Shown piece after piece: positions 2,041 through 34,565 of a stretch of 64,000 nucleotides of DNA. Location: assembly GCA_941918925.1 (NCBI GenBank), contig OW799237.1, positions 108,780,515-108,844,514 of the forward strand. Direction: 5' to 3'. Position 1 is the first letter of the stretch; every line of letters starts with the position of its first letter. This DNA comes from Phyto melanocephala. Lineage: Eukaryota; Arthropoda; Insecta; Diptera; Rhinophoridae. The translations under genes were made by a program, and so were the position numbers. The notes beneath the pieces were generated by a model, which worked only from the letters and a program-made list of their open reading frames with translations, had not been told where the DNA came from and did not search any database.

Positions 2041-2330
2041 ATGTGTGTGAAGATAAATACGCCGAGTTAAATACGTTTTTAGTGATAGAAAAAAAAATAT
2101 CGCATGCGATAAAAAAGTTTTTAATACGTAAAATTAACAAATTTGCACTAATTTTTAAATTTTCTGTGTGTTTAAACATTAAAAACTAATATTCGTAGTG
2201 CAGATGAACAATACAATAAACTTTTAGTAAAATTATTCTTTTTTTTGTATTTTTTTGTTCTCAAGCAAATTGTTCATACATGAGTCCTTTTAGGGATTTA
2301 GTTAGTACAATCATATATTACCATCTCAAT

Positions 2331-4632
2331 AAACTAAACCTAGTGGAAATTGAAGGTAACTACCTATGCTATCAAACCACATTTATACTTTTTCCCAATT
2401 GTATTTGTGAATATTTTTATAAAATTTTTAAAATTTGACTTAGTGCAAATTTTCTAATATATGTATGAGCTCTTGGAGGGATGTGGTCAGTATGACCATA
2501 TCTTAACATCTCAATAAATTAAACCTAATGGAAATTAAAGGTAACTACCTATGCTATCAAACCACATTTATACTTTTTCCCAATTGTATTTGTGAATATT
2601 TTTATAAAATTTTTAAAATTTGACTTAGTGCAAATTTTTTAATATATGAGCTCTTGGAGGGATGTGGTCAGTATGACCATATCTTAACATCTCAATAAAT
2701 TAAACCTAGTGGAAGTTGAAGGTAACTACCTATGCTATCAAACCACATTTATACTTTTTCCCAATTGTATTTGTGAATATTTTTATAAAATTTTTAAAAT
2801 TTGACTTAGTGCAAATTTTCTAATATATGTATGAGCTCTTGGAGGGATGTGGTCAGTATGACCATATCTTAACATCTCAATAAATTAAACCTAGTGGAAA
2901 TTAAAGGCAGCTACCTATGCTATCAAACCACATTTATACTTTTTCCCAATTGTATTTGTGAATATTTTTATAAAATTTTTAAAATTTGACTTAGTGCAAA
3001 TTTTCTAATATATGAGCTCTTGGAGGGATGTGGTCAGTATGACCATATCTTAACATCTCAATAAATTAAACCTAGTGGAAATTGAAGGTATCTACCTATG
3101 CTATTAAACCACATTTATACTTTTTCCCAATTGTATTTGTGAATATTTTTATAAAATTTTTTAAATTTGACTTAGTGCAAATTTTCTAATATATGAGCTC
3201 TTGGAGGGATGTGGTCAGTATGACCATATCTTAACATCTCAATGAATTAAACCTAGTGGAAATTGAAGGTAACTACCTGTGCTATTAAACCACATTTATA
3301 CTTTTTCCCAATTGTATTTGTGAATATTTTTATAAAATTTTTTAAAATTGACTTAGTGCAAATTTTCTAATATATGAGCTCTTGGAGGGATGTGGTCAGT
3401 ATGACCATATCTTAACATCTCAATAAATTAAACCTAGTGGAAGTTGAAGGTAACTACCTATGCTATCAAACCACATTTATACTTTTTCCCAATTGTATTT
3501 GTGAATATTTTTATAAAATTTTTAAAATTTGACTTAGTGCAAATTTTCTAATATATGTATGAGCTCTTGGAGGGATGTGGTCAGTATGACCATATCTTAA
3601 CATCTCAATAAATTAAACCTAATGGAAATTAAAGGTAACTACCTATGCTATCAAACCACATTTATACTTTTTCCCAATTGTATTTGTGAATATTTTTATA
3701 TAATTTTTAAAATTTGACTTAGTGCAAATTGTCTACTATATGAGGTCTTGGAGGGATGTGGTCAGTATGACCATATCTTAACATCTCAATAAATTAAACC
3801 TAGTGGAAATTGAAGGTATCTACCTATGCTATTAAACCACATTTATACTTTTTCCCAATTGTATTTGTGAATATTTTTATAAAATTTTTTAAATTTGACT
3901 TAGTGCAAATTTTCTAATATATGTATGAGCTCTTGGAGGGATGTGGTCAGTATGACCATATCTTAACATCTCAATAAATTAAACCTAATGGAAATTAAAG
4001 GTAACTACCTATGCTATCAAACCACATTTATACTTTTTCCCAATTGTATTTGTGAATATTTTTATAAAATTTTTAAAATTTGACTTAGTGCAAATTTTCT
4101 AATATATGTATGAGCTCTTGGAGGGATGTGGTCAGTATGACCATATCTTAACATCTCAATAAATTAAACCTAGTGGAAATTGAAGGTATCTACCTATGCT
4201 ATTAAACCACATTTATACTTTTTCCCAATTGTATTTGTGAATATTTTTATAAAATTTTTTAAATTTGACTTAGTGCAAATTTTCTAATATATGAGCTCTT
4301 GGAGGGATGTGGTCAGTATGACCATATCTTAACATCTCAATGAATTAAACCTAGTGGAAATTGAAGGTAACTACCTATGCTATTAAGCCACATTTATACT
4401 TTTTCCCAATTGTATTTGTGAATATTTTTATAAAGTTTTTAAAATTTGACTTAGTGCAAATTTTCTACTATATGAGGTCTTGGAGGGATGTGGTCAGTAT
4501 GACCATATCTTAACATCTCAATGAATTAAACCTAGTGGAAATTGAAGGTAACTACCTGTGCTATTAAACCACATTTATACTTTTTCCCAATTGTATTTGT
4601 GAATATTTTTATAAAATTTTTAAAATTTGACT
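2331..4632 (+). repeat. Satellite array A, left arm of FB-A, first part
   Basis: About 12-13 direct tandem units, 181-185 bp each. Each unit contains TTAAACCTAGTGGAAATTGA, CCAATTGTATTTGTGAATA and GGAGGGATGTGGTCAGTATG. Length variation comes mainly from presence or absence of TATG before GAGCTCTTGG. Most units carry the variant CTAATATATG..GAGCTC, while a few (near 3730 and 4470) carry CTACTATATGAGGTC, the form fixed in the right arm. The array stops abruptly in mid-unit at the LINE junction. Confidence 0.95.
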
Positions 4633-4636
4633 ATAA

Positions 4637-5623
4637 TATAATAATAATGCCTGCATTGATGGTGTTTTTAGTAATTTTTCAAACGAAATGTGTATTAGTT
4701 CGATTCAAAATCAATTATCAGATCACAATTTTATATTTTGTAAATTAAAAACTAATTCTCATTGTTCTGAACACATTGTTAAACAAATTCACATGATTGA
4801 TTACACGAAATTTGGTTCATTTATTGATGACAACTTATATATTGATAATTCGTTAAATTCATCTGATCAGTGTGCAAGATTAGTGAATAATCTTTCTTTG
4901 GCTTTAAGTCACAGCACTTCTACAAAAGCTAAAAGAATCAATATGAGACATAAAATTAGCCCATGGATATCTGAATCTCTTATTTCGTTAATAAATTTAA
5001 AAAACAAATTATTAAAAGTGAGAAGAAAAGATAAACACAATGCGTATATTGCAGACCGGCTGAAGCGTATTAGCAAAGTAATTAAAAATAGCAGCAATGT
5101 TTTAATGAATAATTATTATGAAAATAACATATCTAAATACAGTAACGATCCAAAAAAAACCTGGAATTTTATCAATAAGCAGCTTGGCAAAAATACGAAA
5201 TCTTCTACGGATTTGGTGATATGTAATAGTAATGTTATAACTCGAGATGATGAGAAAGCTGAGGTATTTAATAATTTCTTTCACGACACTATTCAAAACC
5301 TGAGAAGTCTAATTCCCCAACATGTAGATGATAATGTTAATATATTTGGTTCTTTAGTTCAAATTAACGGATCTTTTAAGTTTAATGCTATAGGAAAAAT
5401 GCATATTGCAAATATTGTGGATAATTTGGCTATGAATAAGAGTCCTGGTTGCGACAATATTACTCCAAAAATGCTTTTGGTGCGTAGAGATAGAATATCT
5501 AAAGTAATCTCAATAATTTTTAATAAAATGATCGGAGAAGGGAAGTATCCTGATGTATTAAAAATGCATAAGATAATTCCAATACCAAAATCTTTAGCAG
5601 CAAACAAGATAGAGAATTTTCGG
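4637..5623 (+). pseudogene. LINE ORF, 5' part: endonuclease end, pre-RT and start of RT
   Basis: The frame opens at 4637 just after a stop at 4634 that belongs to the truncation junction. An ATG at 4688 lies inside the frame and is not a real start. Residues just after it contain NQLSDHNF, the C-terminal SDH motif of APE-type LINE endonucleases. A basic pre-RT region follows (KISPWISESLISL, KKTWNFINKQLG), then the first RT blocks (MNKSPGCDNITPKML, HKIIPIPK). The frame is cut after ENFR at 5623 by FB-B. Skipping FB-B and one copy of the 9-bp duplication, it continues in frame at 17720 with PISVLSTIDK, the expected next RT motif. The product was a retrotransposon endonuclease/reverse transcriptase; this copy cannot be functional. 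Confidence 0.9.
5615..5623. repeat. 9-bp target duplication of FB-B, left
   Basis: AATTTTCGG ends the LINE coding sequence here and is repeated exactly at 17711-17719. Removing one copy together with 5624-17710 restores the LINE reading frame, independent proof that this is a duplicated target. Confidence 0.95.
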
Positions 5624-5859
5624 ACGTGTGTGAAGTTAAATATGCCGAGTTAAATATGTTTTGACGTAAGAACATATTTAACTTAGAAGTTAAATATGTT
5701 ATGACGTAACGACATATTTAACTCAAAAGTTAAATATGTTTCAACGTAACGATGTTATAAACAAAAATAAGATATTCTTTATTCAAAAACATCAAATAAT
5801 AAGAAAATTAATAACAAAAATAATTTTTTTTATAAATTTTTTTGTATATACATACATAT
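5624..5859 (+). repeat. FB-B terminal inverted repeat, left unique part
   Basis: Nearly identical in inverse orientation to 17475-17710. The outer 130 bp hold a run of short palindromic modules built from GTTAAATATG and CATATTTAAC around a GACGTAA core (about 5636-5750). These regularly spaced inverted motifs look like a protein-binding array, for example transposase sites; that role is inference. Confidence 0.9.
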
Positions 5860-8800
5860 TGTATTTGTGAATTTTTTTAAAAATTTTTGAAATTTGCACT
5901 ATGAGAAAATCATTGAATCTCTGAGGGATTTTGGACATATTTGGTCAAACCCTTCGAGGTCACTCATATAGACCATATGGAAAAGGAAGACAATTGCTTG
6001 CTCTAACTACCTGTATAACTCACAATTCTGAATTGTATTTGTGAATTTTTTTAAAAATTTTTGAAATTTGCACTATGAGAAAATCATTGAATCTCTGAGG
6101 GATTTTTGACATATTTGGGCAAACCCTTCGAGGTCACTCATATAGATCATATGGAAAAGGAGGACAATTGTTTGCTCTAATTACCTGTATAACTCACAAT
6201 TCTGAATTGTATTTGTGAATTTTTTAAAAAATTTTTGAAATTTTGCACATGAGAAAATCATTGAATCTCTGAGGGATTTTGGACATATTTGGTCAAACCC
6301 TTCGAGGTCACTCATATAGACCATATGGAAAAGGAAGACAATTGTTTGCTCTAATTAACTGTATAACTCACAATTCTGAATTGTATTTGTGAATTTTTTT
6401 AAAAATTTTTGAAATTTGCACATGAGAAAATCATTGAATCTCTGAGGGATTTTGGGCATATTTGGGCAAACCCTTCGAGGTCATTCATATAGACCATATG
6501 GAAAAGGAGGACAATTGTTTGCTCTAATTACCTGTATAACTCACAATTCTGAATTGTATTTGTGAATTTTTTAAAAAATTTTTGAAATTTGCACATGAGA
6601 AAATCATTGAATCTCTGAGGGATTTTGGACATATTTGGGCAAACCCTTCGAGGTCACTCATATAGACCATATGGAAAAGGAAGACAATTAATTGCTATAA
6701 TTAACTGTATAACTCAGAATTCTGAATTGTATTTGTGAATTTTTTAAAAAAATTTTAAAATTTGCACATGAGAAAATCATTTAATCTCTGAGGGATTTTT
6801 GACATATTTGGGCAAACCCTTCGAGGTCACTCATACAGACCATATGGAAAAGGAGGACAATTAATTGCTATAATTAACTGTATAACTCACAATTCTGAAT
6901 TGTATTTGTGAATTTTTTAAAAAATTTTTGAAATTTGCACATGAGAAAATCATTGAATCTCTAAAGGAATTTTGGACATATTTGGGCAAACCCTTCGAGG
7001 TCACTCATAAAGACCATATGGAAAAGGAAGACAATTAATTGCTATAATTAACTGTATAACTCAGAATTCTGAATTGTATTTGTGAATTTTTTAAAAAATT
7101 TTTGAAATTTGCACATGAGAAAATCATTGAATCTCTGAGGGATTTTGGACATATTTGGGCAAACCCTTCGAGGTCACTCATATAGACCATATGGAAAAGG
7201 AAGACAATTAATTGCTATAATTAACTGTATAACTCAGAATTCTGAATTGTATTTGTGAATTTTTAAAAAAATTTTTGAAATTTGCACATGAGAAAATCAT
7301 TGAATCTCTGAGGGATTTTGGACATATTTGGGCAAACCCTTCGAGGTCACTCATATAGACCATATGGAAAAGAAGGACAATTGTTTGTTCTAATTACCTG
7401 TATTACTCACAATTCTGAATTGTATTTGTGAATTTTTTAAAAAATTTTTGAAATTTGCACATGAGAAAATCATTGAATCTCTGAGGGATTTTGGACATAT
7501 TTGGGCACACCCTTCGAGGTCACTCATATAGACCATATGGAAAAGGAAGACAATTGTTTGCTCTAATTAACTGTATAACTCACAATTCTGAATTGTATTT
7601 GTGAATTTTTTTAAAAATTTTTGAAATTTGCACTATGAGAAAATCATTGAATCTCTGAGGGATTTTTGACATATTTGGGCAAACCCTTCGAGGTCACTCA
7701 TATAGATCATATGGAAAAGGAGGACAATTGTTTGCTCTAATTACCTGTATAACTCACAATTTTGAATTGTATTTCTGAATTTTTTAAAAAATTTTTGAAA
7801 TTTGCACATGAGAAAATCATTGAATCTCTGAGGGATTTTGGACATATTTGGTCAAACCCTTCGAGGTCACTCATATAGACCATATTGAAAAGGAAGACAA
7901 TTGTTTGCTCTAATTAACTGTATAACTCACAATTCTGAATTGTATTTGTGAATTTTTTAAAAAATTTTTAAAATTTGCACATGAGAAAATCATTGAATCT
8001 CTGAGGGATTTTTGACATATTTGGGCAAACCCTTCGAGGTCACTCATATAGACCATATGGAAAAGGAGGACAATTAATTGCTATAATTAACTGTATAACT
8101 CACAATTCTGAATTGTATTTGTGAATTTTTTAAAAAATTTTTGAAATTTGCACATGAGAAAATCATTGAATCTCTGAGGGATTTTGGACATATTTGGGCA
8201 AACCCTTCGAGGTCACTCATATAGACCATATGGAAAAAGAGGCCAATTGTTTGCTCTAATTACCTGTATAACTCACAATTCTGAATTGTATTTGTGAATT
8301 TTTTTAAAAAATTTTGAAATTTGCACTATGAGAAAATCATTGAATCTCTGAGGGATTTTGGACATATTTGGGCAAACAATTCGAGGTCACTCATATAGAC
8401 CATATGGAAAAGGAAGATAATTGTTTGCTCTAATTAACTGTATAACTCAGAATTCTGAATTGTATTTGTGAATTTTTTTAAAAATTTTTGAAATTTGCAC
8501 TATGAGAAAATCATTGAATCTCTGAGGGATTTTTGACATATTTGGGCAAACCCTTCGAGGTCACTCATATAGACCACATGGAAAAGGAAGACAATTGTTT
8601 GCTCTAATTAACTGTATAACTCGAAATTCTGAATTGTATTTGTGAATTTTTTTAAAAATTTTTTAAATTTGCACATGAGAAAATCATTGAATCTCTGAGG
8701 GATTTTGGACATATTTGGGCAAACCCTTCGAGGTCACTCATATGGAAAAGGAAGACAATTAATTGCTATAATTAACTGTATAACTCAGAATTCTGAATTG

Positions 8801-11800
8801 TATTTGTGAATTTTTTAAAAAATTTTTAAAATTTGCACTATGAGAAAATCATTGAATCTCTGAGGGATTTTGGACATATTTGGGCAAACCCTTCGAGGTC
8901 ACTCATATAGACCATATGGAAAAAGAGGCCAATTGTTTGCTCTAATTACCTGTATAACTCACAATTCTGAATTGTATTTGTGAATTTTTTTAAAAATTTT
9001 TGAAATTTGCACATGAGAAAATCATTGAATCTCTGAGGGATTTTGGACATATTTGGGCACACCCTTCGAGGTCACTCATATAGACCACATGGAAAAGGAA
9101 GACAATTGTTTGCTCTAATTAACTGTATAACTCACAATTCTGAATTGTATTTGTGAATTTTTTTAAAAATTTTTGAAATTTGCACATGAGAAAATCATTG
9201 AATCTCTGAGGGATTTTGGACATATTTGGGCAAACCCTTCGAGGTCACTCATATGGAAAAGGAAGACAATTAATTGCTATAATTAACTGTATAACTCAGA
9301 ATTCTGAATTGTATTTGTGAATTTTTTTAAAAATTTTTGAAATTTGCACTATGAGAAAATCATTGAATCTCTGAGGGATTTTGGACATATTTGGGCAAAC
9401 CCTTCGAGGTCACTCATATAGATCATATGGAAAAGGAGGACAATTGTTTGCTCTAATTACCTGTATAAATCACAATTCTGAATTGTATTTGTGAATTTTT
9501 TAAAAAATTTTTGAAATTTGCACATGAGAAAATCATTGAATCTCTGAGGGATTTTGGACATATTTGGTCAAACCCTTCGAGGTCACTCATATAGACCATA
9601 TGGAAAAGGAGGACAATTGTTTGCTCTAATTACCTGTATAACTCACAATTCTGAATTGTATTTGTGAATTTTTTAAAAAATTTTTGAAATTTGCACTATG
9701 AGAAAATCATTGAATCTCTGAGGGATTTTTGACATATTTGGGCAAACCCTTCGAGGTCACTCATATAGACCATATGGAAAAGGAGGACAATTGTTTGCTC
9801 TAATTACCTGTATAACTCAGAATTCCGAATTGTATTTGTGAATTTTTTAAAAAATTTTTGAAATTTGTACATGAGAAAATCATTGAATCTCTGAGGGATT
9901 TTGGACATATTTGGTCAAACCCTTCGAGGTCACTCATATAGACCATATTGAAAAGGAAGACAATTGTTTGCTCTAATTACCTGTATAACTCAGAATTCTG
10001 AATTGTATTTGTGAATTTTTTAAAAAATTTTTGAAATTTGCACATGAGAAAATCATTGAATCTCTGAGGGATTTTGGACATATTTGGGCAAACCCTTCGA
10101 GGTCACTCATATAGACCAAATGGAAAAGGAAGACAATTAATTGCTATAATTAACTGTATAACTCAGAATTCTGAATTGTATTTGTGAATTTTTTAAAAAA
10201 TTTTTGAAATTTGCACATGAGAAAATCATTGAATCTCTGAGGGATTTTGGACATATTTGGGCAAACCCTTCGAGGTCACTCATATAGACCATATAGAAAA
10301 GGAGGACAATTAATTGCTATAATTAACTGTATAACTCAGAATTCTGAATTGTATTTGTGAATTTTTTAAAAAATTTTTGAAATTTGCACTATGAGAAAAT
10401 CATTGACTCTCTGAGGGATTTTTGACATATTTGGGCAAACCCTTCGAGGTCACTCATATAGACCATATGGAAAAGGAGGACAATTGTTTGCTCTAATTAA
10501 CTGTATAACTCAGAATTCTGAATTGTATTTGTGAATTTTTTTAAAAATTTTTGAAATTTGCACTATGAGAAAATCATTGAATCTCTGAGGGATTTTTGAC
10601 ATATTTGGGCAAACCCTTCGAGGTCACTCATATAGATCATATGGAAAAGGAGGACAATTGTTTGCTCTAATTACCTGTATAACTCACAATTCTGAATTGT
10701 ATTTGTGAATTTTTTAAAAAATTTTTGAAATTTGCACATGAGAAAATCATTGAATCTCTGAGGGATTTTGGACATATTTGGTCAAACCCTTCGAGGTCAC
10801 TCATATAGACCATATGGAAAAGGAGGACAATTGTTTGCTCTAATTACCTGTATAACTCACAATTCTGAATTGTATTTGTGAATTTTTTAAAAAATTTTTG
10901 AAATTTGCACTATGAGAAAATCATTGAATCTCTGAGGGATTTTGGACATATTTGGGCAAACCCTTCGAGGTCACTCATATAGACCATATGGAAAAGGAGG
11001 ACAATTGTTTGCTCTTATTACCTGTATAACTCAGAATTCCGAATTGTATTTGTGAATTTTTTAAAAAATTTTTGAAATTTGTACATGAGAAAATCATTGA
11101 ATCTCTGAGGGATTTTGGACATATTTGGTCAAACCCTTCGAGGTCACTCATATAGACCATATTGAAAAGGAAGACAATTGTTTGCTCTAATTAACTGTAT
11201 AACTCACAATTCTGAATTGTATTTTTGAATTTTTTTAAAAATTTTTGAAATTTGCACATGAGAAAATCATTGAATCTCTGAGGGATTTTGGACATATTTG
11301 GGCAAACCCTTCGAGGTCACTCATATAGACCATATGGAAAAGGAGGACAATTGTTTGCTCTAATTACCTGTATAACTCACAATTCTGAATTGTATTTGTG
11401 AATTTTTTAAAAAATTTTTGAAATTTGCACATGAGAAAATCATTGAATCTCTGAGGGATTTTAGACATATTTGGGCAAACCCTTCGAGGTCACTCATATA
11501 GACCATATGGAAAAGGAAGACAATTGTTTGCTCTAATTAACTGTATAATTTGGAATTCTGAATTGTATTTGTGAATTTTTTTAAAAATTTTTGAAATTTG
11601 CACATGAGAAAATCATTGAGTCTCTGAGGGATTTTGGACATATTTGGGCAAACACTTCGAGGTCACTCATATAGATCATATGGAAAAGGAAGACAATTGT
11701 TTGCTCTAATTAACTGTATAACTCAGGATTCTGAATTGTATTTGTGAATTTTTTAAAAAATTTTTAAAATTTGCACTATGAGAAAATCATTGAATCTCTG

Positions 11801-14328
11801 AGGGATTTTGGACATATTTGGGCAAACCCTTCGAGGTCACTCATATAGACCATATGGAAAAAGAGGCCAATTGTTTGCTCTAATTACCTGTATAACTCAA
11901 AATTCTGAATTGTATTTGTGAATTTTTTAAAAAATTTTTGAAATTTGCACATGAGAAAATCATTGAATCTCTGAGGGATTTTAGACATATTTGCGCAAAC
12001 CCTTCGAGGTCACTCATATAGACCATATGGAAAAGGAAGACAATTGTTTGCTCTAATTAACTGTATAACTCGGAATTCTGAATTGTATTTGTGAATTTTT
12101 TTTAAAAATTTTTGAAATTTGCACATGAGAAAATCATTGAGTCTCTGAGGGATTTTGGACATATTTGGGCAAACCCTTCGAGGTCACTCATATAGACCAT
12201 ATGGAAAAGGAAGACAATTGTTTGCTCTAATTAACTGTATAACTCAGAATTCTGAATTGTATTTGTGAATTTTTTAAAAAATTTTTAAAATTTGCACTAT
12301 GAGAAAATCAGTGAATCTCTGAGGGATTTTGGACATATTTGGGCAAACCCTTCGAGGTCACTCATATAGACCATATGGAAAAAGAGGCCAATTGTTTGCT
12401 CTAATTACCTGTATAACTCACAATTCTGAATTGTATTTGTGAATTTTTTTAAAAAATTTTGAAATTTGCACTATGAGAAAATCATTGAATCTCTGAGGGA
12501 TTTTGGACATATTTGGGCAAACAATTCGAGGTCACTCATATAGACCATATGGAAAAGGAAGATAATTGTTTGCTCTAATTAACTGTATAACTCAGAATTC
12601 TGAATTGTATTTGTGAATTTTTTTAAAAATTTTTGAAATTTGCACTATGAGAAAATCATTGAATCTCTGAGGGATTTTTGACATATTTGGGCAAACCCTT
12701 CGAGGTCACTCATATAGACCACATGGAAAAGGAAGACAATTGTTTGCTCTAATTAACTGTATAACTAGAAATTCTGAATTGTATTTGTGAATTTTTTTAA
12801 AAATTTTTGAAATTTGCACATGAGAAAATCATTGAATCTCTGAGGGATTTTGGACATATTTGGGCAAACCCTTCGAGGTCACTCATATGGAAAAGGAAGA
12901 CAATTAATTGCTATAATTAACTGTATAACTCAGAATTCTGAATTGTATTTGTGAATTTTTTAAAAAATTTTTAAAATTTGCACTATGAGAAAATCATTGA
13001 ATCTCTGAGGGATTTTGGACATATTTGGGCAAACCCTTCGAGGTCACTCATATAGACCATATGGAAAAAGAGGCCAATTGTTTGCTCTAATTACCTGTAT
13101 AACTCACAATTCTGAATTGTATTTGTGAATTTTTTTAAAAATTTTTGAAATTTGCACTATGAGAAAATCATTGAATCTCTGAGGGATTTTTGACATATTT
13201 GGGCAAACCCTTCGAGGTCACTCATATAGACCATATGGAAAAGGAGGACAATTGTTTGCTCTAATGAACTGTATAACTCAGAATTCTGAATTGTATTTGT
13301 GAATTTTTTAAAAAATTTTTGAAATTTGCACATGAGAAAATCATTGAATCTCTGAGGGATTTTGGACATATTTGGGCAAACCCTTCGAGGTCACTCATAT
13401 AGACCAAATGGAAAAGGAAGACAATTAATTGCTATAATTAACTGTATAACTCAGAATTCTGAATTGTATTTGTGAATTTTTTAAAAAATGTTTAAAATTT
13501 GCACTATGAGAAAATCATTGAATCTCTGAGGGATTTTTGACATATTTGGGCAAACCCGTCGAGGTCACTCATACAGACCATATGGAAAAGGAGGACAATT
13601 GTTTGCTCTAATTACCTGTATAACTCAGAATTCTGAATTGTATTTGTGAATTTTTAAAAAAAATTTTGAAATTTGCACATGAGAAAATCATTGAATCTCT
13701 AAAAGATTTTGTACATATTTGGGCAAACCCTTCGAGACCACTCATATAGACCATATTGAAAAGGAAGACAATTGTTTGCTCTAATTAACTGTATAACTCA
13801 AAATTCTGAATTGTATTTGTGAATTTTTTAAAATTTTTTTGAAATTTGCACATGAGAAAATCATTGAATCTCTGAGGGATTTTGGACATATTTGGGCAAA
13901 CCCTTCGAGGTCACTCATATAGACCATATGGAAAAGGAGGACAATTGTTTGCTCTAATTAACTGTATAACTCAGAATTCTGAATTGTATTTGTGAATTTT
14001 TTAAAAAATTTTTGAAATTTGCACATGAGAAAATCATTGAATCTCTGAGGGATTTTGGACATATTTGGTCAAACCCTTCGAGGTCACTCATATAGACCAT
14101 ATTGAAAAGGAAGACAATTGTTTGCTCTAATTACCTGTATAACTCACAGTTCTGAATTGTATTTGTGAATTTTTTTAAAAATTTTTGAAATTTGCACATG
14201 AGAAAATCATTGAATCTCTGAGGGATTTTGGACATATTTGGGCAAACCCTTCGAGGTCACTCATATAGACCATGCGGAAAAGGAAGACAATTGTTTGCTC
14301 TAATTAACTGTATAACTCAGAATTCTGA
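5860..14328 (+). repeat. Satellite array B, left arm of FB-B (about 49 units)
   Basis: Direct tandem units of 171-174 bp, each with TTGTATTTGTGAATTTTTT, GAGAAAATCATTGAATCTCT, GAGGGATTTTGGACATATTT, CCCTTCGAGGTCACTCATAT and GACCATATGGAAAAGG. Variant positions (CACTATGAG/CACATGAG, GGTCAAAC/GGGCAAAC, TTGTTTGCTC/TTAATTGCTA) are shuffled among units. Two higher-order duplications can be read from rare variants: a 4-unit block near 8230-8940 repeated 4,145 bp downstream, and a 3-unit (about 519 bp) tandem repeat around 11390-12420. No protein-coding capacity. Confidence 0.95.
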
Positions 14329-17300
14329 AAATTAAAAAATTCACAAATACAATTCAGAACTGTGAGTTATACAGGTAATTAGAGCAAACAATTGTCTTCC
14401 TTTTCAATATGGTCTATATGAGTGACCTCGAAGGGTTTGACCAAATATGTCAAAAATCCTTCAGAGATTCAATGATTTTCTCATAGTGCAAATTTCAAAA
14501 ATTTTTTAAAAAATTCACAAATACAATTCAGAATTGTGAGTTATACAGGTAATTAGAGCAAACAATTGTCCTCCTTTTCCATATGGTCTATATGAGCGAC
14601 CTCGAAGGGTTTGCCCAAATATGTCCAAAATCCCTCAGAGATTCAATGATTTTCTCATAGTGCAAATTTCAAAAATTTTTAAAAAAATTCACAAATACAA
14701 TTCAGAATCGTGAGTTATACCGGTAATTAGAGCAAACAATTGTTCTCTTTTTCCATATGGTCTATATGAGTGACCTCGAAGGGTTTGCCCAAATATGTCC
14801 AAAATCCCTCAGAGATTCAATGATTTTCTCATAGTGCAAATTTAAAAAAATTTTTAAAAAAATTCACAAATACAATTCAGAATTGTGAGTTATACAGGTA
14901 ATTAGAGCAAACAATTGTCCTCCTTTTCCATATGGTCTATAGGAGTGACCTCGAAGGGTTTGCCCAAATATGTCCAAAATCCCTCAGAGATTCAATGATT
15001 TTCTCATGGTGCAAATTTCAAAAATTTTTAAAAAAATTCACAAATACAATTCAGAATTGTGAGTTATACAGTTAATTAGAGCAAACAATTGTCTTCCTTT
15101 TCAATATGGTCTATATGAGTGACCTCGAAGGGTTTGACCAAATATGTCCAAAATCCCTCAGAGATTCAATGATTTTCTCATGTGCAAATTTCAAAAATTT
15201 TTTAAAAAATTCACAAATACAATTCAGAATTGTGAGTTATACAGTTAATTATAGCAATTAATTGTCCTCCTTTTCCATATGGTCTATATGAGTGACCTCG
15301 AAGGGTTTGCCCAAATATGTCCAAAATCCCTCAGAGATTCAATGATTTTCTCATGTGCAAATTTCAAAATTTTTTTAAAAAATTCACAAATACAATTCAG
15401 AATTCTGAGTTATACAGTTAATTATAGCAATTAATTGTCTTCCTTTTCCATATGGTCTATATGAGTGACCTCGAAGGGTTTGCCCAAATATGTCCAAAAT
15501 CCCTCAGAGATTCAATGATTTTCTCATGTGCAAATTTCAAAAATTTTTTAAAAAATTCACAAATACAATTCAGAATTGTGAGTTATACAGTTAATTATAG
15601 CAATTAATTGTCCTCCTTTTCCATATGGTCTATATGAGTGACCTCGAAGGGTTTGCCCAAATATGTCAAAAATCCCTCAGAGATTCAATGATTTTCTCAT
15701 GTGCAAATTTTAAAAATTTTTTAAAAAATTCACAAATACAATTCAGAATTCTGAGTTATACAGTTAATTATAGCAATTAATTGTCTTCCTTTTCCATATG
15801 GTCTATATGAGTAACCTCGAAGGGTTTGCCCAAATTTGTCCAAAATCCCTCAGAGATTCAATGATTTTCTCATGTGCAAATTTCAAAAATTTTTTAAAAA
15901 ATTCACAAATACAATTCAGAATTGTGAGTTATACAGGTAATTAGAGCAAACAATTGTCCTCCTTTTCCATATGGTCTATATGAGTGACCTCGAAGGGTTT
16001 GCCCAAATATGTCCAAAATCCCTCAGAGATTCAATGATTTTCTCATGTGCAAATTTCAAAAATTTTTAAAAAAATTCACAAATACAATTCAGAATTGTGA
16101 GTTATACAGTTAATTAGAGCAAACAATTGTCTTCCTTTTCAATATGGTCTATATGAGTGACCTCGAAGGGTTTGACCAAATATGTCCAAAATCCCTCAGA
16201 GATTCAATGATTTTCTCATGTGCAAAATTTCAAAAATTTTTTAAAAAATTCACAAATACAATTCAGAATTGTGAGTTATACAGGTAATTAGAGCAAACAG
16301 TTGTCCGCCTTTTCCATATGATCTATATGAGTGACCTCGAAGGGTTTGCCCAAATATGTCAAAAATCCCTCAGAGATTCAATGATTTTCTCATAGTGCAA
16401 ATTTCAAAAATTTTTAAACAAATTCACAAATACAATTCAGAATTGTGAGTTATACAGGTAGTTAGAGCAAGCAATTGTCTTCCTTTTCCATATGGTCTAT
16501 ATGAGTGACCTCGAAGGGTTTGCCCAAATATGTCCAAAATCCCTCAGAGATTCAATGATTTTCTCATGTGCAAATTTCAAAAATTTTTTAAAAAATTCAC
16601 AAATACAATTCAGAATTGTGAGTTATACAGGTAATTAGAGCAAACAATTGTCCTCCTTTTCCATATGGTCTATATGAGTGACCTCGAAGGGTTTGCCCAA
16701 TATGTCCAAAATCCCTCAGAGATTCAATGATTTTCTCATGTGCAAATTTCAAAAATTTTTAAAAAAATTCACAAATACAATTCAGAATTGTGAGTTATAC
16801 AGTTAATTAGAGCAAACAATTGTCTTCCTTTTCAATATGGTCTATATGAGTGACCTCGAAGGGTTTGACCAAATATGTCCAAAATCCCTCAGAGATTCAA
16901 TGATTTTCTCATGTGCAAAATTTCAAAAATTTTTAAAAAAATTCACAAATACAATTCAGAATTGTGAGTTATACAGTTAATTAGAGCAAACAATTGTCTT
17001 CCTTTTCAATATGGTATATATGAGTGACCTCGAAGGGTTTGACCAAATATGTCCAAAATCCCTCAGAGATTCAATGATTTTCTCATGTGCAAAATTTCAA
17101 AAATTTTTTAAAAAATTCACAAATACAATTCAGAATTGTGAGTTATACAGGTAATTAGAGCAAACAATTGTCCTCATTTTCAATATGGTCTATATGAGTG
17201 ACCTCGAAGGGTTTGACCAAATATGTCCAAAATCCCTCAGAGATTCAATGATTTTCTCATGTGCAAATTTCAAAAATTTTTAAAAAAATTCACAAATACA

Positions 17301-17474
17301 ATTCAGAATTGTGAGTTATACAGGTAGTTAGAGCAAGCAATTGTCTTCCTTTTCCATATGGTCTATATGAGTGACCTCGAAGGGTTTGACCAAATATGTC
17401 CAAAATCCCTCAGAGATTCAATGATTTTCTCATAGTGCAAATTTCAAAAATTTTTAAAAAAATTCACAAATACA
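14329..17474 (-). repeat. Satellite array B, right arm of FB-B (about 18 units, inverted)
   Basis: The same 171-174-bp satellite in reverse orientation, recognised from ACAAATACAATTCAGAATTG, GAGTGACCTCGAAGGGTTTG and AAATCCCTCAGAGATTCAAT. The switch happens within TTCTGAAAATTAAAAAATTC at about 14325-14345, so the arms abut with almost no spacer. The right arm is about 31 units shorter than the left, showing that the arms expand and contract independently. Confidence 0.95.
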
Positions 17475-17710
17475 ATATGTATGTATATACAAAAAAATTT
17501 ATAAAAAAAATTATTTTTGTTATTAATTTTCTTATTATTTGATGTTTTTGAATAAAGAATATCTTATTTTTGTTTATAACATCGTTACGTTGAAACATAT
17601 TTAACTTTTGAGTTAAATATGTCGTTACGTCATAACATATTTAACTTCTAAGTTAAATATGTTCTTACGTCAAAACATATTTAACTCGGCATATTTAACT
17701 TCACACACAT
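17475..17710 (-). repeat. FB-B terminal inverted repeat, right unique part
   Basis: Inverse copy of 5624-5859 with a single base difference at the second terminal position. Near identity of the ends argues for a recent insertion or recent gene conversion between arms. Confidence 0.9.
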
Positions 17711-17719
17711 AATTTTCGG
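17711..17719. repeat. 9-bp target duplication of FB-B, right
   Basis: AATTTTCGG, exact copy of 5615-5623; the LINE coding frame resumes directly after it. Confidence 0.95.
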
Positions 17720-19036
17720 CCAATATCTGTTTTATCAACAATAGATAAAGTTATAGAAAAAATTATTTTTGATCAATTGTTTAATTATTTGGAAGATAAT
17801 GACATTTTATTTGAACGGCAATATGGATTCAAGAAAGGTACTGGGACAGAAGAAGCAGTTGTTAATGTGGTTGAATATGTTTGCAAAGGACTTGATGCTG
17901 GTTACAAAGGAGTTGCAGGATTGTTTTTTGATTTGTCAAAAGCATTTGACCTAGTTGATCATAAGATACTATGTGAAAAGCTTCGATATATTGGGTTGTC
18001 TCGAGATGCAATTAATTTATTTAAGGATTATTTAAAGAGAAGGAAGCAATTTGTTCAAATAAATGATTCAAAAAGTAACGTGTTGAATGTAATATGTGGA
18101 GTTCCACAAGGAAGTGTGCTTGGACCACTTTTATTCAAAATTTATATAGATGATTTAAAAAATATAAATCTTAATGGGCACTTATTTATGTATGCAGACG
18201 ATATATGCCTATTTTATAAATATCAGCATGAAAAGGTTCTACAGACACAGGTTGAATATGATGCTGCGATTTTGTCGGAATTTTTAAGAGTAAATAAATT
18301 ATTATTAAATGCTGAAAAGACTAAGTTTATAAGATTCAAACCATATATTTATAGAAGTGAAGATCTTATGAATGTACATGTTGATGGTAATGTAATATGT
18401 GAATCAGAAAATGTGAAATAACTTGGCATTAATCTTAGCCACAATCTTCTTTGGGATAATCAAATAAACAGTTTAAAAGCGAAGATTTCTTCTGGAATTG
18501 GTATTCTTTATAAGTTTAAAAACAAACTGAATTTTAAAACGAAACTGCTACTTTATCAATCTCTAGTTCATTCGCATCTAACGTATTTACCCATAATTTA
18601 TGGTAGTAAAACAAATACTAGCCTAAAAACTTTGCAATCAGCTCAAAATAAAGCGCTTAAAATTGTATTTAATCTCCCAATAAGATTCTCAACAGTAGAT
18701 CTTTATCAAAACTATGCAAAAACAATACTTCCAATAAGAGGACTTTATAAACAACAAATACTGTTGTATGTTTTTAAGTGTATAAATGGAATTGGTTCAC
18801 ACGGTTTAACTTTTCCCCAAAACATGTCAATTTCACGAATAACTACTAGACATTCGCAGGACTTAAATGTTGTATGGTGCCGCCTTGAGCTTACTAAGCA
18901 ACGCATTAGCTTCAGTGGTCCTAGTGAATATAATGGATTACCACAAAGTTTGAAAAATATTTCGGTTTTATCAACGTTTAAAATTAAGTTAAAACAATAT
19001 TTGTTAGAAAATATAGAAATACTTCTCGCATCCTAA
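17720..19036 (+). pseudogene. LINE ORF, 3' part: reverse transcriptase core and C-terminal region
   Basis: In frame with 4637-5623 once FB-B is removed. RT blocks in order: PISVLSTIDK, RQYGFKKGTGTEEAV, LFFDLSKAFDLVDH (first catalytic Asp), GVPQGSVLGPLLFKIYIDDL, and the catalytic box MYADDICLF at about 18188-18214. A TAA at 18419-18421 interrupts the expected VK-Y-LG motif: the family normally has Tyr there, so one base change created the stop. The frame continues open after it (LGINLSHNL) to the natural stop at about 19036, with a C-terminal region typical of such LINEs. Apart from FB-B, that nonsense codon is the only lesion I see, so the copy is fairly young. Confidence 0.9.
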
Positions 19037-19208
19037 ATTAAATATATGTATGTATGATTAAAAAAATATATTTATATTTGCCTATACAAATTTCAATATT
19101 TGAATTTAATTTTTTTTTTTTTTCCTATATTATGAATAAATAAATTGTTGCCTTTTAGCCTCTATAAAGCCAATTCGGCGCTGAGGCGCAATATGATTAT
19201 TGTAAAAA

Positions 19209-19239
<31 letters not shown>
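19037..19239 (+). other. LINE 3' UTR and poly(A) tail
   Basis: Contains AATAAATAAA near 19134-19143 and a short GC-richer stretch, AATTCGGCGCTGAGGCGCAA, near 19175, possibly the 3' structure read by the reverse transcriptase (inference). It ends in about 29 A residues at 19211-19239. Confidence 0.8.
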
Positions 19240-19241
<2 letters not shown>

Positions 19242-19733
19242 AAACCTAGTGGAAATTGAAGGTAACTACCTGTGCTATTAAACCACATTTATACTTTTTC
19301 CCAATTGTATTTGTGAATATTTTTATCGAATTTTTAAAATTTGACTTAGTGCAAATTGTCTACTATATGAGGTCTTGGAGGGATGTGGTCAGTATGACCA
19401 TATCTTAACATCTCAATGAATTAAACCTAGTGGAAATTGAAGGTAACTACCTATGCTATTAAACCACATTTATACTTTTTCCCAATTGTATTTGTGAATA
19501 TTTTTATAAAGTTTTTAAAATTTGACTTAGTGCAAATTTTCTACTATATGAGGTCTTGGAGGGATGTGGTCAGTATGACCATATCTTACCATCTCAATGA
19601 ATTAAACCTAGTGGAAATTGAAGGTAACTACCTATGCTATTAAACCACATTTATACTTTTTCCCAATTGTATTTGTGAATATTTTTATAAAATTTTTAAA
19701 ATTTGACTTAATGTAATATATGAGTTCTTGGAG
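19240..19733 (+). repeat. Satellite array A, left arm of FB-A, second part
   Basis: About 2.6 further units of the 181-185-bp satellite directly after the LINE poly(A). These loop-proximal units carry the CTACTATATGAGGTC variant found throughout the right arm, unlike most of the outer left arm. Confidence 0.9.
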
Positions 19734-20426
19734 GTTTGTTTTGTATAATTATATTTTTAATTTGACAAAAATAAAAAAAGTTACAAAAAAAAGATTTATT
19801 TTACATATGTTATACAGAGGACTTCAGTTTTTTTATATAAATTTTTTTTGTTATGTAAATATATACATATTTTTACAAACTTAAAAAAATATTTTGTTAA
19901 TTAAAAAAAATAATAATAAAAAATACATTTCTATTAAATTTAATTTGTAATAGTATTATGTAAATATAATATTAGCTTTATATAAGTAATTATCAATTTG
20001 TACTTAAAACATTTTGTACTGATATTTTCTTTAATAAATATTTTAATGTTCACATTAGGCAAGTATTTGATATTGATACGTATATATTAATATATTTAAA
20101 AAAATATATGCTTAATTAAATGAAACTGAATAAGCAATTAATTTCCATTTGTTTTAACAATATTTGGCATAAGAAAAATCATTAAACAATTTTTTACCAA
20201 AAATAGTGGGCATGCTTATTTATGCAAATATTTTATATGATTAAGAAGTTTGACTACATAAATAACAAATAAATTGTGGGGAAAATGTTATGTTGAGAAC
20301 TTTGTTGTAATGTTCAAAACAATCTTTATCGACCCCTCGATTGCACTTAATGCATTTTAAAAATGACTTAAGATGGCCGCCTTCACAATACATACATTGT
20401 ATTTTACTGTTGCCATATTTAGTTTA
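19734..20426. other. Central loop of FB-A
   Basis: Non-satellite sequence between the two arms. The left two thirds is low-complexity AT-rich DNA without recognisable content; the right third encodes the Cys-rich fragment listed separately. In Foldback elements the loop can hold the remains of an autonomous element's coding region, so this is the place to look for the ancestral transposase. Confidence 0.75.
20241..20423 (-). pseudogene. Cys-rich zinc-finger-like fragment, possible transposase C-terminus
   Basis: A 60-codon open frame between stops on the minus strand, starting at the junction with the right satellite arm and ending in TAA at 20241. It lacks a plausible start, so it is a 3' coding fragment. 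The order is C-x2-C (IQCMYCEGG), about 10 residues, K-C-x2-C (LKCIKCNRG), then DKDCFEHYNKV. This C..C/C..C/C-F-x-x-Y layout resembles the C-terminal Cys-rich domain of piggyBac-type transposases. However, piggyBac duplicates TTAA, whereas FB-A has a 9-bp duplication like NOF/MULE elements, so the affinity is unsettled. It may be captured sequence. Motif spacing is seen; identity is inference. Confidence 0.4.
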
Positions 20427-22634
20427 GGTAGTTACTTTCAATTTCCACTAGGTTTAATTCATTGAGATGTTAAGATATGGTCATACTGACCACATCCCTC
20501 CAAGACCTCATATAGTAGAAAATTTGCACTAAGTCAAATTTTAAAAACTTTATAAAAATATTCACAAATACAATTGGGAAAAAGTATAAACGTGGTTTAA
20601 TAGCATAGGTAGTTACCTTCAATTTCCACTAGGTTTAATTCATTGAGATGTTAAGATATGGTCATACTGACCACATCCCTCCAAGACCTCATATAGTAGA
20701 AAATTTGCACTAAGTCAAATTTTAAAAACTTTATAAAAATATTCACAAATACAATTGGAAAAAGTATAAATGTGGTTTAATAGCATAGGTAGCTACCTTC
20801 AATTTCCACTAGGTTTAATTCATTGAGATGTTAAGATATGGTCATACTGACCACATCCCTCCAAGACCTCATATAGTAGACAATTTGCACTAAGTCAAAT
20901 TTTAAAAATTCTATAAAAATATTCACAAATACAATTGGGAAAAAGTATAAATGTGGTTTAATAGCACAGGTAGTTACCTTCAATTTCCACTAGGTTTAAT
21001 TCATTGAGATGTTATGATATGGTCATACTGACCACATCCCTCCAAGACCTCATATAGTAGAAAATTTGCACTAAGTCAAATTTTAAAAATTTTATAAAAA
21101 TATTCACAAATACAATTGGGAAAAAGTATAAATGTGGTTTAATAGCATAGGTAGTTACCTTCAATTTCCACTATGTTTATATCATTGAGATGTTAAGATA
21201 TGGTCATACTGACCACATCCCTCCAAGACCTCATATAGTAGACAATTTGCACTAAGTCAAATTTTAAAAATTCTATAAAAATATTCACAAATACAATTGG
21301 GAAAAAGTATAAATGTGGTTTAATAGCACAGGTAGTTACCTTCAATTTCCACTAGGTTTAATTCATTGAGATGTTAAGATATGGTCATACTGACCACATC
21401 CCTCCAAGACCTCATATAGTAGAAAATTTGCACTAAGTCAAATTTTAAAAACTTTATAAAAATATTCACAAATACAATTGGCAAAAAGTATAAATGTGGC
21501 TTGATAGCATAGGTAGTTACCTTCGATTTCCACTAGGTTTAATTCATTGAGATGTTAAGATATGGTCATACTGACCACATCCCTCCAAGACCTCATATAG
21601 TAGAAAATTTGTACTAAGTCAAATTTTAAAAACTTTATAAAAATATTCACAAATACAATTGGGAAAAAGTATAAATGTGGTTTAGTAGCACAGGTAGTTA
21701 CCTTCAATTTCCACTATGTTTAATTCATTGAGATGTTAAGATATGGTCATACTGACCACATCCCTCCAAGACCTCATATAGTAGAAAATTTGCACTAAGT
21801 CAAATTTTAAAAACTTTATAAAAATATTCACAAATACAATTGGGAAAAAGTATAAATGCGGTTTAATAGCATAGGTAGTTACCTTCAATTTCCACTAGGT
21901 TTAATTCATTGAGATGTTAAGATATGGTCATACTGACCACATCCCTCCAAGACCTCATATAGTAGAAAATTTGCACTAAGTCAAATTTTAAAAACTTTAT
22001 AAAAATATTCACAAATACAATTGGGAAAAATTATAAATGTGGTTTAATAGCACAGGTAGTTACCTTCAATTTCCACTAGGTTTAATTCATTGAGATGTTA
22101 AGATATGGTCATACTGACCACATCCCTCCAAGACCTCATATAGTAGAAAATTTGCACTAAGTCAAATTTTAAAAACTTTATAAAAATATTCACAAATACA
22201 ATTGGGAAAAAGTATAAATGTGGTTTAATAGCACAGGTAGTTACCTTCAATTTCCACTAGGTTTAATTCATTGAGATGTTAAGATATGGTCATACTGACC
22301 ACATCCCTCCAAGACCTCATATAGTAGAAAATTTGCACTAAGTCAAATTTTAAAAACTTTATAAAAATATTCACAAATACAATTGGGAAAAATTATAAAT
22401 GTGGTTTAATAGCACAGGTAGTTACCTTCAATTTCCACTAGGTTTAATTCATTGAGATGTTAAGATATGGTCATACTGACCACATCCCTCCAAGACCTCA
22501 TATAGTAGAAAATTTGCACTAAGTCAAATTTTTAAAACTTTATAAAAATATTCACAAATACAATTGGGAAAAAGTATAAATGTGGTTTAATAGCATAGGA
22601 AGTTACCTTCAATTTCCACTAGGTTTAATTTATT
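20427..22634 (-). repeat. Satellite array A, right arm of FB-A (about 12 units, inverted)
   Basis: Satellite A in reverse orientation (TACCTTCAATTTCCACTAGG, CATACTGACCACATCCCTCC, GACCTCATATAGTAG). Nearly all units carry the GACCTCATATAGTAG subtype and lack the TATG insertion seen in the outer left arm, so this arm has been homogenised separately. Confidence 0.95.
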
Positions 22635-22923
22635 GAGATGGTAATATATGATTGTACTAATTAAATCCCTAAAAGGACTCATGTATGAACAATTTGCTTG
22701 AGGACAAAAAAAATACAAAAAAAAAGAATAATTTTACTAAAAGTTTATTGTATTATTCATTTGCACTACGAATATTAATTTTTAATGTTTAAACACACAG
22801 AAAATTTAAAAATTAGTGCAAAATTGTTAATTTTACGTATTAAAAAGTTTTTTATCGCATGCGATATTTTTTTTTCTATCACTAAAAACGTATTTAACTA
22901 GGCGTATTTATCTTCACACACAT

Positions 22924-22932
22924 CGCACAGTG
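22924..22932. repeat. 9-bp target duplication of FB-A, right
   Basis: CGCACAGTG, exact copy of 2032-2040, directly after the FB-A right terminus; the Helitron-like host sequence resumes here. Confidence 0.9.
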
Positions 22933-24060
22933 TACTTTTCGGTATATTTAAAAACAAAAACGTCATAAAAGCAACAAAATTAAATGTACGACTCTGAAAT
23001 TTGGCACACTTTGCTTTTTGGTGAGAGGCTTTTTTGTAACGGAAAATCAATATGCCACGCCCACTTTTACGCCCACCTCCCATATAACGTTTTACTCAAA
23101 ATTCATATAATTTCTTTATTAATAAATATTTTGGAATAACAAAGGGCTACATTGAAACACCTAAGTTGTACTCATTCGCAAAAATAACTTTGACACGCCT
23201 ACTATAACGCCCACTTTTCACGTTATAAACCGTTAATGTAATTAAAAAGCTCATAAAACCGCCAAAAAAAGAGGTATGATGATCAAATTTGCTACGTATA
23301 TCCCCCTCGGCATTGTCATTACTGTGCCAGAAAATTAAGGTGCCACGCCCACTTTAACGCCTACCTCCCATATAACGTTTTAACTAAAATTCATATAGTT
23401 TCTCTATTAATAAAGATTTTGGAATAACAAAGGGCTATGTTGAAACACCTAAGTTGTACTCATTCGCAAAAATAACTTTGACACGCCTACTATAACGCCC
23501 ACTTTTCACGTTATAAACCGTTAATGTAATTTAAATGCTCATAAAACCGCCAAAATAAGAGGTATGATGATAAAATTTGCTACGTATATCCCCCTCGGCA
23601 TTGTTATTACTGTGCCAGAAAATTAAGGTGTCACGCCCACTTTTACGCCCGCCTCTCATATAACGTTTTACCTTAAATTCATATAATTTCTCTACTAATA
23701 ATGATTTTGGAATAATAAAGGGCTATATTGAAACACCTAAGTTGTACTCATTCGCAAAAATAACTTTGACACGCCTACTATAACGCCCAGTTTTCACGTT
23801 ATAAACCGTTAATGAAATTTCAAAGCTCTTAAAACCGCCAACATTACAGGTATGATGATCAAATTTGCTACGTATATCCTTCTAATCAATGATATTGGTG
23901 TGCCAAAAAGTTTAGGTGACACACCTACTTTAACGACTACCTCCCATATAACGGTTTATCTTAAATTCATGTAATTTCTCTATTGACAAAGTTTTTGGGA
24001 AAATAAAGGACCATATTGAGAAATCTAAGTTGTATTTATTAGCAGAAACTTTATTGACAC
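22933..24060 (-). repeat. Internal 288-bp tandem repeats of HL-1
   Basis: About three and a half diverged direct units with a period of 287-289 bp, measured from TTGACACGCCTACT at about 23190, 23479, 23766 and 24054. Each unit has CCACGCCCACTTT and CTCCCATATAACG blocks. The last unit is the most decayed. Confidence 0.8.
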
Positions 24061-24134
24061 GCCTACTTTAATGTCCACTTTCATTGAAGGACTACATTTA
24101 AAAAAGCATTTTAGTAGCATATCGAAGTATTAAA

Positions 24135-33691: not shown

Positions 33692-34565
33692 ACTAGCCAA
33701 TCCCGGCGCGCGTTGCTACGCCCCTTCATGAATTTTAATCGCATTCTAAATTTTAATCGAATATCAAGTGCAAGGCTAAAAACTACAACTTTTTCTTTAT
33801 GAGCGTGGCACTGCCCACTTTTCTAATTACAAAACTGTATAGTCATGACAGCTCAATAAGTGTGCAAAGTTTCAGAAAAATCGGTTCAGTGTAAGTACCT
33901 CAAAATGATACCTTTTTTTATGGGCGTGGCACTTCCCACTTTTCTAAATACGAAACTGTATAGTCATGACAACTCAATATGTGTGCAAAGTTTCAGAAAA
34001 ATCGGTCCAGTGCAAGTACCTCAAAATGATACCTTTTTTTTAATGGGCGTGGCACTGCCCACTTTTCTAATGATGAAAGTGTAAAGTCATGACAGCTCAG
34101 TATGTTTGCAAAGTTTCAGAAAATTCGGTCCAGTGCAAGTAGCTAAAACTGATAACTAATTTTTTATGGGCGTGGTCCCGCCCACTTTTTTAGTCTTAAA
34201 ATTATAAAGTCACGACAGCTTAATATGTGTGCACAGTTTCAGAAAAATCGGTCCAGTGCAAGTGCCTCAAAATTAAAACTTTTTTAGGGGCGTGGCCCCG
34301 CCCACTTTTCTTATCACGAAATTATTTAGTCATGACAGCTCGATATGTGTACAAAGTTTCAGAAAAATCGGTCAAGTGCAAGTAGCTAAAACTGATAACT
34401 AATTTTTTATGGGCGTGGCCCGCCCACTTTTTTTCATCCATAAACACTCCCCGGTATGTGTACAACAACTTACCAAAGTTTGAGCCCGATCGGTTTTACA
34501 GTTTCAGAGTCTATAGCTAACACACACACACACACACACAGAGTTTCACTTTTATATATATAGAT
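33692..34565. mobile_element. Interspersed repeat X, copy 1 (GGGCGTGGC modules)
   Basis: Starts ACTAGCCAATCCCGGCGCGC and ends CACTTTTATATATATAGAT; the copy at 35582 has related start and end. In between are about five to six direct modules of roughly 123 bp, each with GGGCGTGGC..CCCACTTTT and AAAGTTTCAGAAAAATCGGT. A CA dinucleotide run sits near 34510-34541 just before the end. No coding sequence. Similar CCCGG..CGCC-start and TATATATAGAT-end repeats are widespread in insects; the class (non-LTR derived or Helitron) is unresolved here. Confidence 0.7.

Follow-up and report, generated by a model that had tools for sequence, protein, structure and literature searches.

How satellite repeats reach new chromosomal sites, and whether transposons act there as seeds or as mere hosts, is a standing question. 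It is raised by a 64,000-nucleotide stretch of Phyto melanocephala DNA (assembly GCA_941918925.1, contig OW799237.1, forward-strand positions 108,780,515 to 108,844,514), hereafter the window, in which an earlier note had described a 12-kb Foldback-like element at 5624-17710. We found both the coordinates and the anatomy to be right, with two opposed arrays of 49.0 and 18.1 copies by Tandem Repeats Finder (TRF). The locus is a foldback-type element whose transposition with target duplication is demonstrated. This element, FB-B, is a mobile element consisting almost wholly of a 173-bp repeat, with its arms arranged head to head. Its features are as follows.

5624-17710: FB-B, 12,087 bp, two ends and two opposed arrays
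5615..5623, + strand: left copy of the target duplication, AATTTTCGG, 9 bp
17711..17719, + strand: right copy of the target duplication, AATTTTCGG, 9 bp
5624..5859, + strand: left end (C end), tip ACGTGTGTGAAG
17475..17710, - strand: right end (T end), tip ATGTGTGTGAAG
5648..5752, + strand: 40-bp repeat in the left end, 2.6 copies, with palindromic AGTTAAATATGT/ACATATTTAACT arms
17582..17686, - strand: 40-bp repeats in the right end, as in the left end
5858..14329, + strand: left arm, a 173-bp unit repeated about 49 times (TRF period 173, 49.0 copies)
14332..17476, - strand: right arm, a 173-bp unit repeated about 18 times (TRF, 18.1 copies)
14330..14331, no strand: centre joint, unit positions 3 and 24 meeting out of register across a 2-bp filler

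The two ends were identical over 450 bp except at base 2, which is C on the left and T on the right, exactly the single difference that had been reported between the 236-bp ends. The repeat unit, given before as 172 bp, measured 173-174 bp. The 40-bp repeats within the ends may be transposase sites. Units of the two arms could not be paired one to one except in the outermost part, some double units being poorly aligned. A 33-bp tip pattern with up to three mismatches occurred four times in the window and not once in 100 shuffles; it was not found in viral_contigs or genome_contigs, and a 20-mer of the repeat unit was not found in viral_contigs. A derivation of the FB-B unit from the 236-bp end was unsupported (89/300 shuffles as good). 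The primers for 172TR of Drosophila virilis (PMC6922343), judged by eye, were unlike the unit.

We then examined the insertion site. As the earlier note had stated, FB-B is flanked by an exact 9-bp duplication inside a coding sequence: AATTTTCGG stands on both sides, within the reverse-transcriptase frame of a long interspersed nuclear element (LINE). With FB-B and one of the duplications taken out (12,096 bp, divisible by 3), a single frame runs across the site, reading ...IENFRPISVLST.... The downstream part of the LINE matched Pfam RVT_1 (E 2.2e-32), and the upstream part had no Pfam match at E 0.001. There are two stops in the joined frame, an internal one and another that closes the last open reading frame (ORF), indicating that the LINE is decayed. 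FB-B itself thus lies inside a LINE that sits in the left arm, made of 181-bp units, of an older sister element, FB-A, and this nesting gives the order of events as FB-A, then LINE, then FB-B.

We next searched the assembly (739.75 Mb, 9 contigs) for further copies. With the 236-bp end 5624-5859 as query, 40 of 150 candidates were scored, yielding at least 40 near-complete matches at 98-100% identity on contigs C1-C6; 11 of the 40 scored ends were left out of the locus reading. A degenerate tip pattern for FB-A and FB-B with up to three mismatches gave 114 + 109 = 223 matches in the genome, positions being listed for the first 100 (C1-C3 and the beginning of C4), and the reversed patterns gave 0 and 0. 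Among the 24 FB-B loci read, 19 were two-ended and five (L018, L019, L020, L024 and L028) showed one end in the stretch read. The 19 complete copies ranged from 784 to 12,087 bp, with a median of 4,793 bp; small copies are over-represented, since L035-L039 were chosen partly for their closely spaced tips. Exact target duplications of differing sequence flanked 16/19 complete copies, 9 bp long in 14 and 8 bp in two (L011 and L017), showing that the genome does hold other copies with independent duplications, the point on which the earlier note had staked its proposal. Their lengths fall within the 8-11 bp given for Mutator-like elements (MULEs) in the available sections of PMC6446971. In no case did the 173-bp array run on outside the ends in the flanks read (often only about 300 bp), so the copies are not always embedded in long satellite arrays. 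Long, unequal and variable arms of tandem repeats, with target duplications at dispersed sites, are the structure of a foldback element.

FB-A-type copies behaved similarly. Exact 9-bp duplications flank the window FB-A, L031, L032 and L033, and the duplication of L042 matches at 8/9 bases. The arms of L031-L033 meet directly; the copies at L034 and L041 are short and diverged, and one end was seen at L040 and L043. Paralogous empty sites were found for FB-A and for two FB-B copies, each with the nine bases present once. For FB-A the repeat is intact in L022 (compared with a joined query string short by one flanking base), for the L016 element it is intact at window ~1560-1730, and for the element at C2:86.0M it is intact in L024, with one mismatch.

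A mirror-image twin of FB-B was found on another contig, at C3:269381-281131. It has the same centre joint and the same C and T arms, of 45.9 and 19.0 units versus 48.9 and 18.0 in FB-B; its target duplication is AATAACACA, and its flanks are unrelated to those of FB-B. Exact matches of at least 260 bp covered 92% of FB-B in the twin; for three other large copies, two of them compared in one orientation only, the coverage was 0%. With both orientations compared, the longest exact match within the arrays was 2,590 bp for the twin versus at most 225 bp for 19 other copies. In collinear segments picked after exact-match mapping, 12 mismatches were counted in 11,334 of the 12,087 bases, four of them at register shifts. 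The register offset moved from 0 to -684 (about four units) and then by about +1 unit twice, with additional 1-bp steps, and one shift lies beside the centre. FB-B and its twin therefore differ by about 0.1% plus whole-unit gains and losses. The shared joint at this divergence indicates that a 12-kb satellite palindrome moved recently, and the presence of both ends in copies with unrelated flanks indicates that whole satellite palindromes are mobile. The dispersed copies with duplications and the twin on C3 bear out the idea of a route by which satellite DNA is carried to new loci. Because long arrays stand between intact tips with duplications, and a near-identical 12-kb copy lies on another contig, dispersal by transposition can be read directly.

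To characterize the centres, joints were located by two-orientation alignment in 17 complete copies and L028 (L022 and L036 were not placed). These 18 copies contained 17 distinct joints, only the twins being alike; none was in register, and each had either microhomology of 0-4 bp or filler of 1-10 bp. Three FB-A-type copies likewise had three distinct joints. Among the tabulated copies, arms held between 0 and about 50 units, and the incomplete L018 had at least 54 units in one arm. With the twin counted once and L023, L036 and L039 left out, the lengths of C arm and T arm were uncorrelated (Spearman 0.22, p 0.44, n 15), and neither was systematically the longer (9 to 6 among the 15 C/T copies).

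We also analyzed the tips. Base 2 was C in 20 and T in 17 of the 37 aligned FB-B ends. In this set 15/16 two-ended copies were C/T, that is, C at one tip and T at the other, L023 being C/C; the count became 17/19 when L022, L036 and L039, which lie outside the alignment, were added. None of the other columns of the 236 variable enough to test was associated with the C/T class (next best p 0.09). At its C end, L026 carries T at base 1 in place of A. FB-A-type tips were T at both ends (L031-L033, L042 and the window copy). The mean distance between end sequences was 4.1 within copies versus 4.5 (same class) and 4.3 (other class) between copies, indicating that, apart from base 2, end sequence is either exchanged between the two classes or common to both. 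Because the copies share ancestry, tip polarity represents the persistence of a state and not 19 independent trials. A repair step can be tested through the private joints and this polarity, for which the 223 tip matches of the two families supply the numbers.

The repeat units showed a related pattern. The 648 units averaged 96% identity to the consensus. The nearest neighbour of a unit lay in the same element in 57% of cases versus 9% with permuted labels (the twins taken as one element), yet mean differences were nearly equal, 7.6 within and 8.1 between elements. We read this as inheritance of the arrays along with their element, followed by partial homogenisation.

The surroundings of FB-B, including the FB-A element that encloses it, comprise the following features.

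4633..5614, + strand: 5'-truncated LINE, portion upstream of FB-B (left border approximate)
17720..19237, + strand: LINE portion downstream of FB-B, RVT_1, terminal poly-A (right border approximate)
2041..22923, no strand: FB-A, older sister element around LINE and FB-B; CGCACAGTG at 2032-2040 and 22924-22932 as target duplication
2312..4632, + strand: FB-A left arm, 181-bp units (TRF)
19238..19710, + strand: FB-A left arm, resumed beyond the LINE (TRF)
19711..20424, no strand: FB-A middle domain, in common with L042 (94-95% identity)
20244..20423, - strand: 60-aa remnant in the FB-A middle, finger-like CxxC...CxxC...H...CxxC
20425..22650, - strand: FB-A right arm, 181-bp units (TRF)

The outer 37 bp of FB-A and FB-B are about 90% alike, and homology of their units is shown by a local score of 88 versus a shuffle maximum of 33 in 500. 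The unique ends of FB-A are 96.2% identical to each other, and those of FB-B are identical but for one base. A 41-bp box is about 93% alike between the units of both families. Its conservation within FB-B was 0.968 versus 0.975 elsewhere (395 units); as it is no more conserved than the rest, we do not propose it as a binding site.

From these data, we consider it likely that FB-B is a non-autonomous foldback DNA transposon with an inverted tandem repeat as its body, whose arms and joints would be shaped by a transposase acting in trans and by the refilling of excision gaps. A transposase supplied in trans, probably MULE/Rehavkus-like, would cut at the tips, and the excision gap would be refilled inward from both sides with the sister or homologue as template. 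Synthesis would slip or stop inside the repeats, and the two inward copies would be end-joined. Refilling and end-joining in this manner would lose the middle, make arm lengths random and give every lineage a joint of its own, and the tips, anchored by flanking DNA, would retain their polarity. A broader proposal, which we advance tentatively and with considerable reservation, is that the satellite array is itself the transposon: two diverged families kept satellite arms, and each round of excision and repair may redraw arms and centre, so that transposition would grow, shrink and disperse arrays while the one-base tip polarity stays fixed.

Several observations weigh against excision and gap repair as the general account. 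Three of the 19 complete FB-B copies (L014, L036 and L039) lack a duplication, and L023 and L036 have C at both tips. L036 (299-1919), with C tips at both ends, has mirror-image flanks and no direct duplication, and we read it as an inverted duplication or a recombinant; together, these cases indicate that some copies were remade by recombination. Right-hand unit position 44 is common to three otherwise different joints (L012+L013, L017 and L023), which could reflect common ancestry or a weak spot instead of independent joining. Gap repair is, moreover, read from its end products alone, and deletion of the centre without transposition would give similar joints. The search for a source of transposase adds to these points. 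At least 135 MULE-domain hits were found in the genome when 150 of 654 candidates were scored, and the listed hits fell in 0/30 adjacent tip pairs less than 30 kb apart among the first 100 listed tips, the closest lying 26.9 kb from a listed tip. Two of the three best MULE loci, both intact, were read and have no FB tips within 10 kb. The principal competitor, to which we give slightly less than even weight, is that the arms expand, contract and rejoin in place, independently of transposition, as the palindrome breaks at its centre and undergoes unequal exchange, and that transposition merely copies the result. The recurrence of position 44 agrees with such remodelling, as do the unit-sized register shifts between the twins, one of them beside the centre. 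Units at the edge of FB-A also look diverged on direct reading and inner ones homogeneous, the match of the FB-A unit to its own end, read as a diverged edge unit, being weak (7/300 shuffles as good). Nearly every copy has its own joint, but the twins kept theirs exactly through about 0.1% divergence, indicating that joints are not quickly remade in place. That the palindrome is an assembly artefact, or an inverted plain satellite array flanked by a chance 9-mer, is extremely improbable. Long inverted repeats are difficult to assemble, and the palindromes are known here from the assembly alone, but matching duplications of different sequence flank 16/19 copies, three insertions have empty-site paralogues, and the units are divergent enough to anchor an assembly.

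The identity of the mobilising system was considered along with these explanations. No encoded transposase was found in FB-B in the window, as the earlier note had observed. The middle of the FB-A-type copy L042 (L042:2744-3217) contains a 119-aa frame, the first part of which is satellite, with a weak C48/Ulp1-like match (Pfam PF02902, E 0.0074, 16.6 bits; curated cut-off 20.7). The C48-like stretch continues into a cysteine/histidine pattern, interrupted by a stop in L042, and window 20244-20423 keeps the finger-like part of it. This finger/Ulp1-like remnant is possibly the leftover of a mobilising gene and hints at a Rehavkus-type partner, which we take as a lead and not as a classification. 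FB-A and FB-B might belong, as non-autonomous elements, to the Rehavkus branch of the Mutator-like superfamily, with a partner carrying a PHD finger and an Ulp1-type domain, a reading to which we give somewhat less than even weight. The 9-bp duplications, the sub-cut-off C48-like stretch and the cysteine/histidine pattern retained in the window copy suit it, and Rehavkus is described in the sections of PMC6446971 available as having 9-bp duplications, a PHD finger, terminal inverted repeats (TIRs) 26-400 bp long and, ahead of one of these, a minisatellite. Rehavkus, however, encodes a transposase with the PHD finger, whereas here a weak protein remnant occurs in FB-A only. The C48 match is below its curated cut-off, the finger-like remnant had no Pfam PHD match (its sub-cut-off hits were DUF1677, two C1 domains and the Tc5 transposase C-terminus), the FB-A middle remnant had no PDB relative of note, a protein search with the Ulp1-like fragment returned no homologue, and no DDE domain was seen in the FB-A middle. 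Ulp1 domains also occur in other transposons, which counts against this assignment. A Galileo-like (P-superfamily) origin of FB-B is very unlikely. Galileo is foldback-like and has chimeric copies; its long TIRs vary independently in length and can contain internal tandem repeats, as in Galileo F, some TIRs having repeats of about 210 bp (available sections of PMC3573991). Its duplications are, however, 7 bp long, whereas among the 19 complete FB-B copies 14 have 9 bp and two have 8 bp, and the copies described there have at most three TIR repeats, the longest TIR being about 1.26 kb.

An autonomous partner was also sought within FB-A-type tip pairs. Where the tips stood 11.0, 11.9, 18.1 and 26.5 kb apart, the central 2.5 kb proved to be satellite and not genes, with a strand flip in 2/4 of these stretches, and these pairs were rejected. 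In the interiors and flanks of nine stretches, whose ORFs of at least 110 aa were judged by eye without a Pfam scan, no family transposase was recognised, and no partner was recognised at L040, L041 and L043, which have mixed tips. An origin of the satellite unit from the Ulp1-like frame was likewise rejected: the L042 frame leaves a unit, but past that border the unit and the middle had no excess likeness (628/1000 shuffles as good or better). For the 173-bp unit against the middle domain, 61/500 shuffles were as good. A separate MULE family was observed, with open transposase ORFs at L029:4431-5843 and L030:4434-5663, the L030 copy lying between inverted repeats of about 160 bp (93%).

Finally, we compared these elements with known systems. 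We regard FB-A and FB-B as a new variant of foldback (Tetris-like) transposons, Tetris and Foldback (FB) being compared by description only. FB of Drosophila melanogaster has unequal, variable arms of tandem repeats and a 9-bp duplication, and its repeats are much shorter. The resemblance of FB-B to FB is confined to anatomy and duplication length. For the other systems, we drew on the accessible sections of the cited papers. Tetris of D. virilis (PMC4079207) is, like FB-B, a foldback without transposase, with a unique outer domain followed by tandem repeats (about 220 bp in Tetris). Arrays of its TIR repeat, TIR-220, reach 66 copies, some placed by fibre-FISH between two outer domains, and three structurally complete copies have TIRs of up to 1,735 bp; amplification is assigned to beta-heterochromatin, where the element is believed to be disrupted by it (PMC4079207). 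Duplications are alike in length, 8-10 bp in Tetris and 8-9 bp in FB-B. Tetris has a middle domain, and FB-B has none in the copies read. By that description, FB-B differs in having arms of about 50 units between intact tips, duplications in 16/19 copies, and a long array that has itself moved. Tetris demonstrates the growth of long arrays inside a foldback; movement of such an array was not found shown in the sections of PMC4079207 available.

Other systems share parts of this combination. Tm1 of root-knot nematodes (PMC3169594) is a Mutator/Foldback element with 8-10 bp (mostly 9) duplications, unequal tandem-repeat arms and asymmetric extreme ends; unlike in FB-B, its repeats are 13-15 bp long, the asymmetry consists of 7-bp motifs and not one base, and some copies carry a transposase. 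TCAST elements of Tribolium (PMC3411249) are similar in that inverted satellite monomers occur in transposon-like elements with target duplications, but they hold about one monomer or less per side, measure at most 1,181 bp and are linked to mariner/Tc1. The combination of features in FB-B was not found reported in the parts of the open-access literature available, most subscription journals being outside the search.

Other sequences were noted near these elements. Copia-like frames, seen without a Pfam scan, adjoin the FB-B arm at L019:2955-6956. A 314-aa ORF on the - strand of the window (31864-32808) matched HTH_24 above and DDE_3 below the cut-off and is probably Mariner/Tc1-like. Tandem repeats with periods of 288, 123 and 142 bp lie at window 23042-24081, 33787-34431 and 35615-36055, where GCCACGCCCAC-like motifs are abundant. 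Paralogues of these repeats are dispersed over other loci, and some FB copies lie in or beside them.

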